A DNA stretch of 39,272 nucleotides, taken from IMG/VR virus record IMGVR_UViG_3300045303_000216, positions 1 through 39,272 of that record. The stretch is one strand, 5' to 3'. Position 1 is the first letter of the stretch; each line of letters opens with the position of its first letter. This DNA comes from a virus. The translations under genes and the position numbers were made by a program. Below are positions 12,961 through 26,922 of this stretch, in pieces. The notes below the pieces were generated by a model, which searched no databases, had not been told where the DNA came from, and worked only from the letters and a program-made list of their open reading frames with translations.

Positions 12961-13461
12961 ATGAGCATGAAAAATCGTGTGTATCGGGTTAAGAAAGGGG
13001 ATCGTTTCGGCAAGCTGTGCGTGTCATCAATCGAGCCGATCAGAAGAAAAAGCCGTAAATATTGGCCATGCGTTTGCGACTGCGGCAATAAGAAGCCCAT
13101 ATATGAAGCCCACCTTCTAAGCGGAGAGATCACATCCTGTTTTTGCACGAAACCCACCGAAAAAGACCATCTTACATATAACTCCTGGCGGGCAATGAAA
13201 GCTCGTTGTTCACAGCCGACACACAAACAGTTTTACAACTATGGCGGCCGCGGAGTCCGGGTCTGCAGCCGTTGGCAACGGTTTAAGTATTTTCTTGAGG
13301 ATATGGGCAAACGCCCTGGCAAGGAATATTCCATCGACAGGATCAACGGAGACGGACATTACGAGCCAAAAAACTGCAAATGGGCGACAGTTGAAGAGCA
13401 ATTGTCCCACCGTCGCACGGAATGGCGTAACGCACCCAGCATCATAACCGCGTGCCCTTAA
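12961..13461 (+). CDS. HNH-type homing endonuclease with N-terminal zinc ribbon
   Basis: A 166-residue protein. Residues 10-62 match the small N-terminal domain of this family (KKGDRFGKLCV, Cys37/39/41 and Cys60/62 as a metal site). Residues 72-152 carry the nuclease-like part: YNSWRAMKARC, FYNYGGRGVRV, SRWQRFKYFLEDMGKRPG, SIDRINGDGHYEPKNCKWAT. Many phages hold these as free-standing homing endonucleases. It is the only rightward gene in this region, converges with the integrase and overlaps its 3' end by 20 bases. It has its own promoter and no Shine-Dalgarno site, consistent with a mobile gene inserted beside attP. Confidence 0.75.
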   Translation: MSMKNRVYRVKKGDRFGKLCVSSIEPIRRKSRKYWPCVCDCGNKKPIYEAHLLSGEITSCFCTKPTEKDHLTYNSWRAMKARCSQPTHKQFYNYGGRGVRVCSRWQRFKYFLEDMGKRPGKEYSIDRINGDGHYEPKNCKWATVEEQLSHRRTEWRNAPSIITACP

Positions 13462-14554
13462 ATCTCATGACGTTTTCCATTGCGTTTGTAGCGTCAGCCT
13501 GAAGACTGGGCTGCACATGACTATAAGTGTCGAGCGTGAGCACGACGGACGCATGGCCCAAGCGATCTGCGACGATCTTTGCATTGTAGCCCTGGATGAG
13601 CAGAAGCGTTGCACATGAATGCCGCAAGCTATATATCGTAATGTGTTTACCGAGATCGCACGCATCCGCGATGGGGCGGAAATAACGGCGAGTTAAATTG
13701 CTCATTTCTATGGGCCGCCCGATCTCATTGGGGAAAATCAAATCGTGATTAAACCATGTTCCTTTCATCGCCAGGCGATGCTCGTTCTGCTCACGACGGT
13801 GTGTTAGGAGTCGCTTTCGGAGTCCGGCAGATAGAGATATTCGCCGCCGGCTGCGGGCTGTTTTTAATTCCTTGAAATAATACCCGCCACCGCCTGACCG
13901 ATTAAATTGCACTGCTTGCTGGATAAAAATGTCCGTACCATCGTAATCCCTCCATCGCAAAGCGAGATATTCTTCCGGCCGCATTCCTGTTTCAAGAGCC
14001 AACTCGAAGATGATACCGTTTTTCATCGTTCGGCAAGTCTCAGTAAAAAGAAAGGCTTCATCTGGATTTAAGACTTGGATCTCTGTTCGCGATCTCTGCG
14101 GGCGATCGGTGTGTTTACAGGGATTGGATTTGATATCGCCGCGGCGGACGCACCAGGAAAAGAAAGCATTGAGCGAAGCATGCAGATTGCGGATGGTGGT
14201 CGAGGACCGGCCGCAATCGTCATAGACCTTTTGGATGTCGCCGCGTTCGATGCGTCCGAGCTTGACGGTGCGGAGCCGGTCGAGGGCGTAGCGTCTTATT
14301 GATCCGTCGTAGCCGTCGACGGTCCGCGGGGCGAGCTTTGGTTTGATCGCGGCCAGCCAGAGCTCAAAGCATTTCTCGAACCTGACGCCGGCGAGACGGC
14401 CCTTGGCGAGCAGGACCTCCATGTCGCGGGCCTCTTCGCGGGCCTCGGCAAGCGTGCCGTCGAAAACCTTGTTGTCATAAACCCGGTTGCGGCCCGTACC
14501 TTTCGACGCACGGATCAGATATCGCCGCTCACCGAGTTTCTTGATCTGGGCCAT
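13442..14554 (-). CDS. int: Tyrosine-type site-specific integrase
   Basis: A 370-residue integrase. N-terminal arm-binding region about 1-55, core-binding SAM-like domain about 56-150, catalytic domain 155-370. Catalytic residues seen: Arg192 (LETGMRPEEYLALRW), Lys231 in the beta-hairpin, Arg311 in IYSLRHS, His334 in LGHAS, and nucleophile Tyr344 in LDTYSHV. The usual first His of the H-x-x-R box is Tyr308, a known variant. It catalyses recombination between attP (about 640-870 bp away) and the host tRNA-Lys gene. It is the last gene of a leftward operon with overlapping or closely spaced genes. Confidence 0.93.
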   Translation of the reverse strand: MAQIKKLGERRYLIRASKGTGRNRVYDNKVFDGTLAEAREEARDMEVLLAKGRLAGVRFEKCFELWLAAIKPKLAPRTVDGYDGSIRRYALDRLRTVKLGRIERGDIQKVYDDCGRSSTTIRNLHASLNAFFSWCVRRGDIKSNPCKHTDRPQRSRTEIQVLNPDEAFLFTETCRTMKNGIIFELALETGMRPEEYLALRWRDYDGTDIFIQQAVQFNRSGGGGYYFKELKTARSRRRISLSAGLRKRLLTHRREQNEHRLAMKGTWFNHDLIFPNEIGRPIEMSNLTRRYFRPIADACDLGKHITIYSLRHSCATLLLIQGYNAKIVADRLGHASVVLTLDTYSHVQPSLQADATNAMENVMRFKGTRL

Positions 14555-14746: not shown

Positions 14747-14979
14747 TATTCCGCGAGCCCTCCGTTTTTCTTAGTCGCAACGAGGAAGGCATTCATGTGC
14801 TTTGTCGCACTGCTGATTGCCGGAATGAACTGTATTGTCATGGATCTGGCCCATTGTTCAAACCCGATTCGCATGCAGTCCATGTTTATTTCAAAATCGA
14901 AGACACGCAACTCGGTAGCCGTGAGAGTGGGTCGCGAATTATGATCAAACCAAAATAACTGCCAATCTCCGAGACTCAT
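14746..14979 (-). CDS. Hypothetical protein in the integrase operon
   Basis: A 77-residue protein joined to its neighbours by ATGA (upstream) and TAATG (downstream) overlaps. It has aromatic residues near the start (DWQLFWFDHNSRPTL) and no Cys pairs or membrane segment. I do not recognise a family. Overlaps on both sides show it is translated with the excisionase-like and integrase genes. Confidence 0.5.
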   Translation of the reverse strand: MSLGDWQLFWFDHNSRPTLTATELRVFDFEINMDCMRIGFEQWARSMTIQFIPAISSATKHMNAFLVATKKNGGLAE

Positions 14980-15233
14980 TCCGCCAGCCCTCCGGCCTGA
15001 ATCCAGCGGCTCAGGCGTCGTTTATCGATATGAATGATCTTGGTGCCGAGGCGGACGGACGGGAAACTATTCGTGGCCGCGTCTTTCGCCAATCCGTAGA
15101 TCACTGATTTAGAAACGCCGCAGAGCTTTGCCGCTTCGTCGACCGTGATCAGCTCCGGCTCGGCCGGGACCGTGTTCACCCAGCTCGCCAGCTCTTCGCG
15201 TATCAATTGCCGTATCGCCTCGTCTGTAGACAT
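14976..15233 (-). CDS. Excisionase-like helix-turn-helix protein
   Basis: An 85-residue protein beginning MSTDEAIRQLI. Residues 32-83 form a MerR/excisionase-type winged helix (ELITVDEAAKLCGVSKSVIYGLAKD, then VRLGTKIIHIDKRRLSRWIQ), the HTH_17 pattern. Its place at the head of the integrase operon supports a recombination directionality factor or a local regulator. An in-frame TTG 27 bases upstream exists, but it would place translation inside the terminator-like hairpin, so the ATG at 15233 is preferred. The promoter at 15300-15328 drives it. Confidence 0.75.
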   Translation of the reverse strand: MSTDEAIRQLIREELASWVNTVPAEPELITVDEAAKLCGVSKSVIYGLAKDAATNSFPSVRLGTKIIHIDKRRLSRWIQAGGLAE

Positions 15234-15235
15234 AG

Positions 15236-15264
15236 AAAAACCCCTCGGGATGTGTCCCAAGGGG
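15236..15264 (-). terminator. Leader hairpin with T-tract upstream of the excisionase-like gene
   Basis: Read leftward, CCCCTTGGG (15264-15256), a 6-base loop, CCCGAGGGG (15249-15241) and five T (15240-15236) form a strong intrinsic terminator. It lies in the 5' leader of the integrase operon, between its promoter and the ATG at 15233. It could act as an attenuator relieved by antitermination, or block other leftward readthrough. Confidence 0.7.
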
Positions 15265-16209: not shown

Positions 16210-16635
16210 TTAAGCCGTTGGGTGAATTATGTGAGTAACCGTGCCGACGATCGCATAGTCATCATCTTCTCTGATCTCCCGATCCGGTAGTTTACCATTG
16301 GCCGGAACCAAAAACAGGCCCGGACGCCCCCGTTTGTCGTTAAGCTTCCAGCGTTTCAGTGTGTACCCGCCATTCAGATAGGCCAGGATAATATCACTAG
16401 GCTCGGGCATTCTACCAATCGCCACCATTACCCAATCGCCGCGGGCGACGTCAGGGATCATTGATTCGCCGTCGATCTGAATCAGCAAAGGCTTATAAAC
16501 GCCTCGTGTTAGTAAATAATTCAGGTCCTGATATTCAAATTCGGCACTGAGCTCCATTGGCTCCCCCGCTGGAATTTTACCTATCAGGGCATCGATCAAT
16601 TTATCAGATTCTTGTGTGAGTTCGTGGGCGATCAT
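16210..16635 (-). CDS. UmuD/LexA-like S24 autoprotease without DNA-binding domain
   Basis: A 141-residue protein matching the S24 (LexA/CI C-terminal) fold: cleavage-site segment IPAGEP with Ala23-Gly24, nucleophile Ser58 in IDGESMIPDVARGD, and general base Lys94 in YTLKRWKLND. CI and LexA carry an HTH domain before the cleavage site. This protein has only about 22 residues there, as in UmuD. No umuC-like gene is present. It starts 11 bases after the RHH protein gene in one leftward unit, so it may serve as the DNA-damage sensor of that repressor. RecA-stimulated self-cleavage is expected from family knowledge. Confidence 0.8.
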   Translation of the reverse strand: MIAHELTQESDKLIDALIGKIPAGEPMELSAEFEYQDLNYLLTRGVYKPLLIQIDGESMIPDVARGDWVMVAIGRMPEPSDIILAYLNGGYTLKRWKLNDKRGRPGLFLVPANGKLPDREIREDDDYAIVGTVTHIIHPTA

Positions 16636-16646
16636 TTCTGTTGAGG

Positions 16647-17021
16647 TTAGCCGGTCTTACGTTTTTTTGGTTTTATACGACGCTCTATCTCCTGGATTTC
16701 ATCCTCACCAATAAGCTGCTGGCGAATCATTTCTTTTGAGGAGGGGTGGCTGCTCAATTTTGCCGTGGCCACCTTAGCTCCCGATTTCGGCTCCGGAATA
16801 AAAGCGTTCATCTTTGGTTCACTTTTGAACGCCTCAGGGCTTAATTCTTTCTCTTCTCGGATTGTCTGAACGATAAATTGATGCAAAAGTCCGCTCATAG
16901 ATGCCCCGCGAAGCTCCGCTGCTATCTGTAAGTCTGCCTTTATTTGCTCACTAATTCTGATTTGAATATAGGCTGCCTTTGGCATTTGAAAAGTCACTAC
17001 ATTGTTCATACACGCGTTCAT
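16647..17021 (-). CDS. Ribbon-helix-helix DNA-binding protein, candidate lysogeny repressor
   Basis: From this ATG the product is 124 residues. The ribbon AAYIQIRIS and helices (EQIKADLQIAAELRGASMSGLLHQFIVQTIREEKEL) form an Arc/CopG/MetJ-type RHH domain. The remaining 70 residues are a Lys/Pro/Ser-rich linker and a short helix (EDEIQEIERRIKPKKRK). Starts are uncertain: TTG 17033, ATG 17021, 17009 or 16985, none with a good ribosome site. ATG 16985 would place one operator site in its leader. It is divergent from a second RHH gene and followed by the S24 autoprotease, which is why I propose it as the repressor. Confidence 0.7.
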   Translation of the reverse strand: MNACMNNVVTFQMPKAAYIQIRISEQIKADLQIAAELRGASMSGLLHQFIVQTIREEKELSPEAFKSEPKMNAFIPEPKSGAKVATAKLSSHPSSKEMIRQQLIGEDEIQEIERRIKPKKRKTG

Positions 17022-17095
17022 TGGCTTATTCAAAAAAAGTTTCTAGAAATATATTGACAATGTCATGACATTGTTTTAGAGTGTCACTACATCGT
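16993..17095. promoter_or_regulatory. Operator region with three related 13-bp sites
   Basis: GTCACTACATTGT (16993-17005), GTCATGACATTGT (17062-17074) and GTCACTACATCGT (17083-17095) are near-identical and in the same orientation. The middle one lies within a perfect 18-bp palindrome, ACAATGTCATGACATTGT (17057-17074), sitting between the -35 and -10 of the rightward promoter. RHH proteins bind as dimers of dimers to such short repeats. This looks like the genetic switch. Confidence 0.75.
17054..17082 (+). promoter_or_regulatory. Rightward early promoter inside the switch region
   Basis: TTGACA (17054-17059), a 17-base spacer and TAGAGT (17077-17082). The spacer holds the 18-bp palindrome, so bound repressor would cover the promoter. 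It would drive the second RHH gene and probably the early genes. Confidence 0.7.
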
Positions 17096-17102
17096 CACAA
17101 CG

Positions 17103-17288
17103 ATGTTAGGACTAATGAAAAACGATACGATTCAAATTCGCATTTCCGAGGCTGAGAAAGAAGCCCTGAATGAGATCGCCTTAAAGCTCGACATCCCTGC
17201 ATCGCAAATCGTTCGTGACGCGGTCAGGGCGAGGTTGGCCGAACTAAAGCAGGCTTCGGAGGAAGCAAAGGAAATAGCAATCGCATAG
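17103..17288 (+). CDS. Ribbon-helix-helix protein, Cro-like counterpart
   Basis: A 61-residue RHH protein: ribbon DTIQIRIS, helix EAEKEALNEIALKLD, turn IPASQIV, helix RDAVRARLAELKQ. It is the first rightward gene from the switch promoter, opposite the larger RHH gene, just as cro faces cI. Both would be expected to bind the same type of sites. ATG 17115 is an alternative start (MKNDTIQIRI). Size is typical for Arc/CopG-like single-domain proteins. Confidence 0.75.
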   Translation: MLGLMKNDTIQIRISEAEKEALNEIALKLDIPASQIVRDAVRARLAELKQASEEAKEIAIA

Positions 17289-17651: not shown

Positions 17652-18521
17652 ATGGCGAACGACAATGGACAAAATGAAGCGACGAAAAGGGCAGTCGCGA
17701 TGCTATCGGACGAAAACCGGAAATGGCTCCAATCTTGGATAGACCAGGGCTGGAATATCACGATCAGCGAGAAATCCTACGACTGGAATGCGGTAAAACT
17801 CTTTGCGGGCGACGCCGAGCCATCCACGCTTTACGGTTTTGGTTCGCTCAACGCGATCCTGAAAGCTGTGGAAACCGAAGAATATCGCCGCAAGCTCGAC
17901 TCCGAATTTGAGCGGGCTCAGACACAGCCGCCAATCGTTCATCAGTTCACGTTTTGTCTTGCATGCGGTGAGCCGGGCAATGTTTTGGACGGGTTTTGCG
18001 AGCCATGTAAGAGTGCGGGCACGGAATTCAAGGTTCCGTCAGAAAGCGAGTTTATCGATAGCACGGCAGAGTTTCTCATCGCTCCGGAGATCGCCAACAT
18101 TGGCCAGCGGCTGATCAGCACGTACGAAGAAGATTTCTGGGTTATCAAGCATGCTCGAATCGATTATCTCTGGAAACGTGCTGGCGGAGAAAAGGCTGGG
18201 CGTGCGACCTTGGGCACGCTCCGAAAAGTGTCGGGCGAGCTTAAATTCTACTCTCAGAAAGACTACATCTGTGCTATCTCGGCAGATCATTGCCACGGGT
18301 TGAATCCTTTCCAGATCACCGCTCTCGTTTTCCACGAGCTTAAACACGGATATTGGGACCACGAGAAGGCGAAATATTCGCTGATCGGCCATGACTTTGA
18401 AGGCTTTAGACGCGAGGTTGAGTTGTTCGGATATTGGAAACCCGATATCAAGGCAATCGCGAAATCGTTTGCCGTCGCGAGCCAACAGAATTTATTCGAA
18501 AGCATGGGGGCACGGTCATGA
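17652..18521 (+). CDS. Putative phage metallopeptidase with zinc ribbon
   Basis: A 289-residue protein. Residues 1-95 are helical and unrecognised. A zinc ribbon (CLACG, CEPCK) lies at about 102-119. Residues 130-289 match the phage metallopeptidase domain (PF18894 type): FWVIKHARIDYLWKRAGG, an Arg/Lys-rich strand, ALVFHELKHGYWD with the HExxH-like zinc site His228-Glu229-x-x-His232, and RREVELFGYW as the downstream helix. Substrate is unknown. Such proteins are frequent in early regions of phages. It starts a chain of ATGA-linked genes. Confidence 0.7.
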   Translation: MANDNGQNEATKRAVAMLSDENRKWLQSWIDQGWNITISEKSYDWNAVKLFAGDAEPSTLYGFGSLNAILKAVETEEYRRKLDSEFERAQTQPPIVHQFTFCLACGEPGNVLDGFCEPCKSAGTEFKVPSESEFIDSTAEFLIAPEIANIGQRLISTYEEDFWVIKHARIDYLWKRAGGEKAGRATLGTLRKVSGELKFYSQKDYICAISADHCHGLNPFQITALVFHELKHGYWDHEKAKYSLIGHDFEGFRREVELFGYWKPDIKAIAKSFAVASQQNLFESMGARS

Positions 18522-20199: not shown

Positions 20200-20285
20200 A
20201 ATTACTATTCCGGATCTGTGCGGTCGTTTTCGTCATCGGCGTGCTGCGGGTGATCAAGGCGAACTATGAGGAAAGAAATATATGA
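20196..20285 (+). CDS. Very small membrane peptide
   Basis: A 29-residue frame (MKLLFRICAVVFVIGVLRVI, then a charged tail) linked by ATGA overlaps to genes on both sides. The hydrophobic stretch could cross the membrane once. Support comes only from the tight overlaps and the clean hydrophobic pattern. Confidence 0.45.
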   Translation: MKLLFRICAVVFVIGVLRVIKANYEERNI

Positions 20286-21325
20286 AGAAACTGAGCAAGA
20301 AAAACGCGGTCACGGCATATAAGGTTTTCGATCCGGACTGGACCTGCAAAGGCTTTAAGTTCGCGATCGGCAAGACCTACAAGCATGAGGGTAAAGTGAA
20401 GATCTGCCAGAGCGGTTTTCACGCATGCACCTTCGCCGGCGACTGCTTTTCTTATTACAGTTTCATCCCTACAAACAAGGTCGCCGAGGTCAGGGTCTGG
20501 GGCGAGACGGACGAAAACGATGGCGACACAAAGCTTTGTGGCTCGCAGATCGAGATCGTCCGCGAGATCGCATGGCCAGAACTGCTGACGCTCGCCAATC
20601 TCGGGAAAGATAACACCGGACATTCAAACACGGGCGACAGGAATTCGGGCGACAGTAATTCGGGCGACAGGAATTCGGGCGACAGTAATTCGGGCTCCTG
20701 GAATTCGGGCTCCTGGAATTCGGGCGACAGTAATTCGGGCTCCTGGAATTCGGGCGACAGTAATTCGGGCTACAGGAATTCGGGCGACAGGAATTCGGGC
20801 TCCTGGAATTCGGGCGACAGGAATTCGGGCGACAGTAATTCGGGCGACAGGAATTCGGGCTCCTGGAATTCGGGCTCCTGGAATTCGGGCGACAGGAATT
20901 CGGGCGACAGTAATTCGGGCTCCTGGAATTCGGGCGACAGGAATTCGGGCGACAGTAATTCGGGCTACAGGAATTCGGGAGCATTCTGCACCGACGCAAA
21001 TCCCGAGGTCTGGCTATTCGACCAGCCGAGCGGCATCAAGGTTCAGGACTGGGAGCGACACCCGGCCGTTCGCATCTTAAATAACAATCTCGAAACACAT
21101 CTCTGGATCTACGCAAATTCCATGTCGGACGCTGAGAAAGAGGCGAATCCGAATTGGGAAACACGCGACGGCTATCTCAAGGCGATCACGTTAAAAGAGG
21201 CGTGGGTCAATATGTGGCCGAACCTAGACGAAAAGAGCCGAAAGATCTTTTACATGCTGCCGAACTTCGACCCTCTGAAGTTCATGCAGATCACGGGCAT
21301 CGATGTCAAGGTAAATGCGGAATAA
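20282..21325 (+). CDS. Pentapeptide-repeat protein with DUF7666-like N-terminal domain
   Basis: A 347-residue protein. Residues 1-105 form the domain often joined to such repeats (AYKVFDPDWTCKGFKF, GKTYKHEGKVKICQSGFHAC, DCFSYYSF, VRVWGETDE). Residues 111-235 are 25 perfect-register pentapeptides of the form N-S-G-x-x, where x-x is DS, DR, SW or YR. They should fold as a right-handed beta-helix. Residues 240-347 are a mixed domain (LWIYANSMSDAEKEANPNW). Pentapeptide proteins can mimic DNA or act as rigid scaffolds; no activity can be assigned. The following reading frame continues in register past its TAA. Confidence 0.8.
   Translation: MKKLSKKNAVTAYKVFDPDWTCKGFKFAIGKTYKHEGKVKICQSGFHACTFAGDCFSYYSFIPTNKVAEVRVWGETDENDGDTKLCGSQIEIVREIAWPELLTLANLGKDNTGHSNTGDRNSGDSNSGDRNSGDSNSGSWNSGSWNSGDSNSGSWNSGDSNSGYRNSGDRNSGSWNSGDRNSGDSNSGDRNSGSWNSGSWNSGDRNSGDSNSGSWNSGDRNSGDSNSGYRNSGAFCTDANPEVWLFDQPSGIKVQDWERHPAVRILNNNLETHLWIYANSMSDAEKEANPNWETRDGYLKAITLKEAWVNMWPNLDEKSRKIFYMLPNFDPLKFMQITGIDVKVNAE
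20612..20986 (+). repeat. 25-unit, 15-bp tandem repeat
   Basis: Twenty-five in-frame 15-bp units, mostly built on AATTCGGGC plus GACAG, TCCTG, TACAG and an end base. Because most units are preceded by G, the stretch contains 16 GAATTC sites. It is coding, not a CRISPR array. Such a block can gain or lose units by slippage. Confidence 0.95.
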
Positions 21326-21619
21326 ACCTATATTTCGGGAGCAATTTCAGGACTTGAGACGACCGCAGCGTTTCAGAATTTCGAGCGGGCGGAAGATCTG
21401 CTGCGGGAACGGGGCCATGAGCCGGTCAATCCGATGAAAAAGGTCAGCGAGCAAGACGGCAAATCGTGGGAAGAGTACATGAAAGAAGATATCCCGATCA
21501 TGCTCGAATGCGACGGCATCTTTATGCTCTCGAACTACCACGGCTCACGCGGTGCCCGGTTAGAGCTTTATGTCGCCGAGGCGTTGGGAATGGAAGTGAT
21601 GCATGAGGTGAACGCATGA
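21315..21619 (+). CDS. DUF4406 family protein with disrupted start (one-base frameshift)
   Basis: The frame ending at TGA 21617-21619 reads TYISGAISGLETTAAFQNFERAEDLL, VNPMKKVSEQDGKSWEEYM, ECDGIFMLSNYHGSRGARLELYVAEALGMEV, a clear DUF4406 (nucleoside deoxyribosyltransferase-like) protein of about 98 residues. Upstream of Thr the frame meets the TAA of the pentapeptide gene (21323-21325) with no ATG, GTG or TTG. An ATG at 21315 in the next frame reads MRNK. One extra A in AATAAACC would give MRNKTYISG, the normal family start. So this is either a sequence or assembly error, a real frameshift, or an unusual initiation. Confidence 0.65.
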
Positions 21620-22017
21620 TCGAACAAGACAGGGTCAGACAAGAATATTTAATGGTGCGGCGGACGATGAGCCAGAAGGCGATCGCGTTCGACACTGGAC
21701 TTTCTGCGAGCACGCTTTCGCGGCTGGAAAGAGGAATGACCGCTCTTGATCTCGACAGCCTGGCCACGCTCGCCCGGTATCTCGGAATTCATCTGAGCGA
21801 AGGCACGATCACCCAGCCGGCTGGCGACACGCTTGCGGAGATCGGCAAGGTCATCGACGCGGACGAAACACTTTCGGAAAATGCCCGGCAGGGATTGAAA
21901 GATCTAATGAACGCCGGGTACAGGGAGCTCGCGAAGCCCGAAAGATCGCGAAATCAAACAACAAAGGAAACAAAACACAATGACTACAACGACAGCACTG
22001 CAAATGCCCGATATTGA
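21616..22017 (+). CDS. XRE-family helix-turn-helix regulator
   Basis: A 133-residue protein starting in an ATGA overlap. Residues 5-62 form a Cro/CI-type HTH (RQEYLMVRRTMSQKAIAFDTGLSASTLSRLERGMTALDLDSLATLARYLGI). A short helical segment follows (LSENARQGLKDLMNAGYRELA) and a polar tail overlaps the next gene. It has no S24 domain, so it is not a classic CI. It may regulate early or late transcription. It lies in the middle of the early operon, away from the switch. Confidence 0.75.
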   Translation: MIEQDRVRQEYLMVRRTMSQKAIAFDTGLSASTLSRLERGMTALDLDSLATLARYLGIHLSEGTITQPAGDTLAEIGKVIDADETLSENARQGLKDLMNAGYRELAKPERSRNQTTKETKHNDYNDSTANARY

Positions 22018-25800: not shown

Positions 25801-26910
25801 TCAAGCAACGCTTTCGGTAACCCGATACGTTAACGCTTGATCCCGTAGCCCACGGGCAAGAATAATTTTAGAGGAAACAATATCTCGATGTTCAGACAGA
25901 CCGCAAACCAGACAGTGATGCCAGCGAACGGACAAGTTCTTTTTGACCGGCGCTCCACACGTACAGGTCTGACTGGTGTTTCGTGGGTCTACTTCAATCA
26001 ACTGTCTATCAGCCCTTTCAGCCTTATATTTCAGTTGGAAAAAGAAACTCGACCACGAAGCATCGAGGATTTGTTTAGAGAGAATGCCACGAGACATCCC
26101 CTTGATATTGAGTTTTTCGACTGCGACCAAACCGTAGTGCCGAATCAGCCAAGTCGAGACTTTGTGTTGAAAATCCGAGCGCTTGTTAAGAATCTTGTGG
26201 TGAAGCACACGCAGTTGGGCGACTGCCCTGCGTCTGCGATTCGAGCCTTTCTTTCTTCGGGCCACTCGACGTTGAGCCACGCGAAGTTGTTTTTGTGCCG
26301 TTTCAAAGAATCTCGGATTGTCTACCTGCGTTCCGTCGGACAAGGTAGCGAAGGCTTCAATGCCGACATCAATTCCAATAGCATCTCGCGATGTCGGCAA
26401 TGGATTTGGAGGTATGCCTTCACAGGAAATAATTGCATACCATTTCAAACCCTCGCGTTTAATGGATATCTCTTTAATGTTCCCTTCGATCGGTCGGTGG
26501 AGTTTAATCTTCAAATTACCGATGAGGGACAGATTGAGTTTGCCGTCCTTAAAGCGAAAACCTACTTTATTGTAGAAAAACGAATTAAAGAAGGACTTGC
26601 CCTTAAATCGTGGATACCCCGGCTTCTCGCCATTCTTAATACGACGAAAGAAAGCCTTAAAAGCTTTATCAACCTGGCGCAGGGTTTGCAAGCACACGCG
26701 AGCTTGTACCGCCATATAGTCTGGATTCAATTTTCTGATATCGGGGATCTGCTTGCTCTGGTCAAAGAAAGAGACGCTTTTTCTGTTCAATCGCCATGCA
26801 TCACGTCTTTCTTGCACGGCGGCATTATAGAGATCGCGCAAAAGATGAAGCGAATGTTCCAGTGTATCGGCTTGGTTTTTGGTTGGGAAAATCCGATATT
26901 TATATGACAT
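25801..26910 (-). CDS. tnpB: TnpB-type RNA-guided nuclease (IS200/IS605, IS1341-like)
   Basis: About 370 residues. Numbering from GTG 26916: N-terminal helical and WED-like parts to about 170, then RuvC-like nuclease with Asp183 (IGIDVG), Glu267 (VAVEKLN) and Asp345 (HRDIVSSK). The zinc finger lies between them: C318-x-C320 (TSQTCTCG) and C335-x-x-C338. ATG 26910 is the likelier start. No tnpA is present, so movement would need a transposase in trans. It faces against the early operon, looks less GC-rich than its neighbours, and has its own extended -10. A hairpin-forming 3' flank at 25770-25801 could be the element end and guide RNA region. Confidence 0.85.
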   Translation of the reverse strand: MSYKYRIFPTKNQADTLEHSLHLLRDLYNAAVQERRDAWRLNRKSVSFFDQSKQIPDIRKLNPDYMAVQARVCLQTLRQVDKAFKAFFRRIKNGEKPGYPRFKGKSFFNSFFYNKVGFRFKDGKLNLSLIGNLKIKLHRPIEGNIKEISIKREGLKWYAIISCEGIPPNPLPTSRDAIGIDVGIEAFATLSDGTQVDNPRFFETAQKQLRVAQRRVARRKKGSNRRRRAVAQLRVLHHKILNKRSDFQHKVSTWLIRHYGLVAVEKLNIKGMSRGILSKQILDASWSSFFFQLKYKAERADRQLIEVDPRNTSQTCTCGAPVKKNLSVRWHHCLVCGLSEHRDIVSSKIILARGLRDQALTYRVTESVA

Positions 26911-26922
26911 TCGCACGTACTA

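Follow-up and report, generated by a model that had tools for sequence, protein, structure and literature searches.

Divergent ribbon-helix-helix genes and a separate UmuD-like S24 protein as a candidate lysogeny switch in a probable acidobacterial siphophage

The DNA analysed here, a virus record of 39,272 bp referred to below as the window, has siphophage-like gene content that includes a terminase, a portal, a tape measure and a major tail protein, plus a tyrosine integrase. The host of this phage is probably an acidobacterium, since the terminase is 75% identical to one encoded in an Acidobacteriota metagenome-assembled genome (L019). At the region of interest, two genes on the minus strand, encoding a ribbon-helix-helix (RHH) protein (RHH1) and then an S24 protein, face a gene for a second RHH protein (RHH2) on the plus strand; all three open reading frames were found where the first-pass annotation had placed them. 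Next on the minus strand beyond S24 are genes for a zinc-ribbon-like protein containing two hydrophobic segments, for an HTH_17/excisionase-like protein and for the integrase, while the early genes lie on the plus strand and RHH2 is the first gene of this divergent operon. The features are as follows.

13442 to 14554, minus strand: tyrosine integrase (PF00589, E=1.7e-18; phrog_1, 3.3e-63)
14976 to 15260, minus strand: HTH_17/excisionase-like protein, downstream of RHH1-S24 (PF12728, E=1.7e-7; TIGR01764, 2.7e-6)
16210 to 16635, minus strand: stand-alone S24/UmuD-like protein, 141 aa (PF00717, phrog_811, profiles, predicted fold)
16647 to 17009, minus strand: RHH1, Arc/CopG-like RHH protein, candidate lysogeny repressor (RHH_5, predicted fold, identity to the L099 relative)
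16993 to 17006, plus strand: operator-like element GTCACTACATTGTT, at the RHH1 start (motif search)
17054 to 17082, plus strand: predicted sigma-70-like RHH2 promoter, TTGACA-17-TAGAGT (10 of 12 consensus positions)
17057 to 17074, no strand assigned: perfect 18-bp palindrome ACAATGTCATGACATTGT, candidate operator
17083 to 17096, plus strand: operator-like element GTCACTACATCGTC, 21 bp from the half-site at 17062 (motif search)
17103 to 17288, plus strand: RHH2, small RHH protein (61 aa) in the cro position (RHH_1, 26.9 bits, above cut-off)

Elsewhere in the early region, a putative phage metallopeptidase (PF18894, E=2.9e-21) containing the motif HELKHG is the product of the first of the long genes in the early operon (17652-18521), the 347-aa protein encoded at 20282-21325 contains an extended array of pentapeptide-type repeats (NSGD/NSGSW), and a gene at 25801-26916 on the minus strand encodes a TnpB-like protein (IS200/IS605 family), recognized by eye only.

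The S24 protein matched Peptidase_S24 (PF00717) with E=6.8e-14 and 52 bits against a curated cut-off of 23.3, and its best PHROG family was phrog_811, 'UmuD-like'; the NCBIfam UmuD model PRK10276.1 gave 45.6 bits, below its cut-off of 110. The self-cleavage pair A23-G24 and the catalytic residues S58 and K94 are present in the expected spacing, bearing out the initial observation that the Ala-Gly site and the Ser/Lys dyad are kept. Searching the PDB with a profile of S24 and two relatives returned E. coli UmuD first (1.4e-25), followed by LexA and lambda CI. Likewise, the best Foldseek match of the AlphaFold model, which has a mean pLDDT of 71 with low values in the arm, was UmuD' (1umu), and lambda CI and LexA also matched. 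The first-pass annotation had stressed that only 22 residues precede the cleavage site; this count is correct, but the arm is not truncated, because it has the full UmuD length, and it aligns with UmuD and the LexA C-terminal domain in both sequence profiles and predicted fold. In length and in its short N-terminal arm the protein resembles UmuD, whereas the fused DNA-binding domain of LexA and CI is absent, the 141-aa protein having a 23-residue arm only. The S24 match is the single one in the whole window, with no second S24 domain, and it is separate from RHH1, in agreement with the claim that the immunity region contains no CI-like fusion.

The RHH1 reading frame (16647-17033) opens with TTG at 17033, giving 128 aa, while an ATG at 17009 gives 120 aa; the ATG is more likely the true start, as it fits the relative at L099 better. 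The Pfam RHH_5 match of RHH1 (E=0.0017) is below cut-off, and assignment to the RHH fold comes from the predicted structure (helices 21-34 and 38-56), which matched CopASO, Arc and CopG in Foldseek with weak E-values and a probability near 1 over a domain of ~45 residues. RHH2, in contrast, is assigned by the Pfam cut-off itself. A C-terminal tail of 60 residues ending in KKRKTG completes RHH1, and S24 lies 11 nt downstream, so that the two elements of the original description, a long-tailed RHH protein directly ahead of a separate S24 protein and a small RHH protein facing them at the head of the early operon, were both confirmed. Comparison of the two RHH sequences revealed that the predicted DNA-contacting strand, IQIRIS, is identical in RHH1 and RHH2, which would fit common operators for the two proteins.

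The region between the divergent genes contains candidates for such operators. Among the perfect palindromes of the 39-kb window the 18-bp one is the longest, and it sits within the 17-nt spacer of the predicted RHH2 promoter; no second copy was found in the window at ≤3 mismatches. A search with the motif GTCACTACATYGTY, allowing ≤2 mismatches, placed four of its five matches inside 16993-17096, with 0.42 expected across the whole window. A sibling phage (L003/L013) has the same layout ahead of its RHH2, TTGACA and then a different palindrome, CAACATATGTTG, and at L099 there are 11-bp direct repeats upstream of RHH1. The palindrome and repeats are thus correctly placed for candidate RHH operators, although consensus sites do not prove function.

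The survey for further RHH-S24 gene pairs that had been proposed for this locus recovered the same three-gene arrangement in two other elements, making three cases in all. An S24 search of 396 Acidobacteriota genomes gave matches in 41, the best by far in genome G184, where the S24 protein of locus L099 (5e-27) is 40% identical to the window S24 over residues 2-139. At L099 a homologue 41% identical to RHH1, sharing the block ELRGASMS-LLHQFI---IREE, ends 9 nt ahead of the S24 start, and opposite the pair is a small RHH gene. The element lies at a contig end and carries replication-type genes named by eye as DnaB-like, DUF5131-like and ParB-like; we read it as a probable prophage or prophage-like element, one that may be damaged or plasmid-like. 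Searching IMG/VR with an alignment of the two S24 sequences returned one locus, L134, on a 67-kb viral contig that encodes a serine recombinase. There an RHH protein above the Pfam cut-off overlaps the S24 gene by 4 nt, and the facing protein, which lacks a Pfam match of its own, was called RHH-like from its alignment with the other loci. Single-protein scans detected no relatives of RHH1 or S24 in viral contigs and no S24 relatives in genome contigs. Given that the queries that recovered L099 and L134 were S24 sequences carrying no RHH information, the layout of RHH2 facing RHH1-S24 is more than chance. All three RHH-linked S24 proteins retain the self-cleavage residues despite being only 30-40% identical. 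A single repressor gene that has been broken was considered and rejected, since three divergent loci each have separate genes with their own starts. On sequence evidence, the RHH1-S24 pairing looks like a real variant of lysogeny switch.

The other S24 relatives in these searches belonged mostly to ordinary UmuDC operons or were LexA, and were set aside. Two genomes of 1.2 Mb each encode a 217-228-aa UmuD beside UmuC (L189, 1228-1881; L190, 1198-1884) with an N-terminal extension, GAGRKPGQGPYGE..RVPESQL..LKKYL, that might be a fused DNA-binding domain. In a maximum-likelihood tree of S24 proteins, in which the branch of the window S24 is long and its placement needs care, the window and L099 proteins grouped in a single clade (100/98), distinct from LexA and from the UmuC-linked groups, and L134 fell among UmuDs (97/96). 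A single clade of RHH-linked S24 proteins was mildly rejected (AU p=0.039), and the pairing therefore probably arose twice. A separate S24 gene also accompanies another type of repressor: in a prophage-like Acidobacteriota element with phage-like genes (L255, G160:C10, 4581-5954), a Phage_CI_repr HTH protein that lacks an S24 domain is followed 33 nt on by a separate S24 protein of 144 aa, which may be an HTH version of the same split between repressor and sensor.

Relatives of RHH1 also occur without S24, and RHH1 therefore need not depend on it. Profile searches with RHH1 in Acidobacteriota found mostly antitoxin-like RHH proteins with PIN neighbours, as at L216 and L218, or RHH pairs lacking S24. 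The latter are divergent at L217 (1106-1714), where the pair adjoins an HTH-like gene, and at L220 (1148-1716), and are possibly switches of mobile elements without a damage sensor. In the sibling phage (record G001), whose portal is 76% identical to that of the window, RHH2 is kept (L013, 10278-12122), the integrase match covers only 39 residues, no S24 protein was found, and the reading frame at the RHH1 position has an RHH-like start that runs into signal-peptide-like sequence. This phage may be a derivative that has lost lysogeny. The joint loss of RHH1-S24 and the integrase, seen in this single metagenomic record, would be expected if RHH1-S24 serves lysogeny.

Three lines of observation lend support to the split-repressor reading advanced in the first-pass annotation: the RHH-based anatomy of the switch, the separate S24 gene in one operon with RHH1 and the recurrence of the pair elsewhere. 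In the model that we favour, and to which we give about an even chance, 16210-17288 is the lysogeny switch of a temperate siphophage of Acidobacteriota, built like CI and Cro from RHH1 and RHH2 but with its RecA-responsive S24 component on a protein of its own. RHH1 would be the repressor of the lysogeny side and RHH2 a Cro-like regulator of the early side, both acting on repeated operator elements, one of them the palindrome in the spacer of the early promoter. S24 would be a detached RecA-responsive sensor produced in step with RHH1. In the undamaged cell it probably aids RHH1, for instance by dimerising and thereby linking RHH1 dimers, or through contact with the RHH1 tail. Upon DNA damage, RecA filaments would trigger self-cleavage of S24 at A23-G24, and removal of the 23-residue arm would weaken repression, perhaps by breaking the contact between S24 and RHH1 or by altering S24 dimers that bridge RHH1 dimers. 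Gene content, order and spacing, the catalytic residues, the palindrome in the predicted promoter, the recurrence and the polymerase-free genome G184 (below) are the part of the model that is read from the DNA. Operator binding, S24-RHH1 contact, S24 cleavage and its effect on repression are what we infer from them.

Alternatively, the RHH pair might be the whole switch, and S24 an accessory prophage UmuD-like protein, comparable to HumD of P1 or N15 gp26, that after cleavage serves a host translesion polymerase. The best sequence and fold matches of S24 are indeed to UmuD, and phages N15, P1, HK140 and phiKO2 are known to carry UmuD-like genes of this stand-alone kind. However, no umuC was found in the window or in L134, and searches with a UmuC protein query and PF00817 detected no Y-family polymerase in G184, which is the genome with the closest relative of the pair and not the window phage's own host, and whose completeness is not reported; the same searches were positive in G158, G160 and 11 of 14 control genomes. 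G184 does carry RecA and a LexA-like protein. Its S24 protein is therefore unlikely to serve UmuC, an argument that is strong but not final. Furthermore, GFPSPA follows the cleavage site in 21 of 21 distinct UmuC-linked UmuDs examined and in none of the three RHH-linked S24 proteins, which have GEPMEL, GVPLEV and GPPSPN at this position. Because GFPSPA is absent and the window, L134 and G184 all proved negative for Y-family polymerases, the window S24 is probably not a working UmuD, and the possibility raised in the first-pass annotation, that it acts only as UmuD with host UmuC, is weakened accordingly. The gene neighbourhoods differ as well, N15 gp26 and pAEv1818 adjoining tail fibre genes and the RHH-linked S24 genes lying in the repressor operon at three of three loci. 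We consider the accessory role unlikely. It is similarly improbable that S24 stabilises lysogeny by occupying RecA filaments or damping SOS, so that minor damage would leave the prophage uninduced, while RHH1 is removed by another route. Hex of phage 434, the second protein of a repressor operon, blocks RecA-mediated repressor cleavage (PMC3564112), and the S24 fold is a natural ligand of RecA filaments (PDB 8gmt, 8gms), but a pure decoy would need neither the A-G site nor the Ser/Lys dyad, and yet both are kept at all three loci.

Tight coupling of the genes would also keep an enzyme and its substrate matched, and S24 proteases such as UmuD are able to act between molecules, as would be needed if S24 cut RHH1 in trans after damage. 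Neither an Ala-Gly nor a Cys-Gly pair is present in RHH1 of the window or L134 or in the L099 translation, so that cutting of RHH1 at a standard S24 site is unlikely; this reading was downgraded, and we hold it to be very improbable. That immunity depends on a different repressor, such as the XRE-like protein encoded in the window at 21616-22017, with the RHH and S24 genes forming an antitoxin-like or moron cluster of no relation to it, also appears quite unlikely. The nearest chromosomal relatives of RHH1 are VapB-like antitoxins beside PIN genes, but no toxin adjoins RHH1, the XRE gene lies among the plus-strand early genes, the palindrome is located in the early promoter, and the sibling phage, whose integrase is truncated, has kept RHH2 but neither S24 nor a full RHH1. 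Returning to the split switch, we tentatively generalize it, at somewhat less than even confidence, to the proposal that stand-alone UmuD-like S24 proteins were recruited at least twice as RecA-triggered, self-cleaving co-repressors of RHH repressors, and elsewhere of CI-type HTH repressors, so that S24 would be an exchangeable sensor.

The arrangement shares parts with several known systems. With E. coli UmuD/UmuD', HumD and N15 gp26 the window S24 has in common its length, a 23-24-residue arm, the cleavage site, the Ser-Lys dyad and the fold; unlike them, it has no UmuC partner that we could find and no GFPSPA, and it lies in an operon with an RHH regulator. LexA and lambda-type CI likewise tie an S24 sensor to a DNA-binding function, at the immunity position, but the window divides DNA binding and sensing between two proteins and has an RHH fold in place of HTH. 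Arc and Mnt of P22 are small RHH regulators of a temperate phage, whereas the proposed switch of the window is a divergent RHH pair with one member coupled to S24. In the ImmR-ImmA and DdrO-IrrE systems a separate repressor and protease jointly provide damage-inducible control, the repressor being cut by the metalloprotease ImmA or IrrE. The window, too, encodes its candidate repressor and its protease separately, but the latter is a serine protease predicted to cleave itself, and no site matching it occurs in RHH1. S24/UmuD proteins have also been recruited as damage-responsive regulators in UmuDAb of Acinetobacter and in the non-canonical LexA of Bacteroidetes (PMC8565304), but these have a fused DNA-binding domain of their own and the window S24 has none.

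The closest parallel is gp4 of the Pseudoalteromonas phages ACA1, ACA2 and C5a, an 'SOS sensing protease': the lysogeny module encodes S24 as a protein of its own, and the authors put forward the untested proposal that by associating non-covalently with the repressor it renders the latter SOS-inducible (PMC10612066). As in the window, ACA1 and ACA2 combine an S24 protein lacking a DNA-binding domain with a separate, S24-free repressor in the lysogeny module. Their repressor, however, is a P2-type immunity repressor and not an RHH protein, the S24 gene lies ~2.3 kb from it and not in one tight operon, and an IrrE-like antirepressor is also present. The initial designation of the locus as a candidate for an undescribed system therefore holds for the RHH-S24 pair itself and not for a detached LexA-like domain acting on a separate repressor, already proposed for ACA1/ACA2. 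Full-text searches, which left most subscription journals outside their scope, found no description of the RHH-S24 pair. The RHH version of a detached S24 sensor thus appears to be new and recurrent, and the general idea has already been published as a proposal.

If the model is true, SOS induction of a prophage would not require a single CI-type protein, and the damage sensor would be a separate subunit working on an unrelated repressor fold. The ACA1/ACA2 proposal becomes testable in a second, tightly coupled form. Sequence-based prediction of prophage inducibility would be widened, because stand-alone 'UmuD-like' genes are currently filed as DNA repair, and the pair would offer a simple model for the evolutionary addition of damage sensing to regulators.
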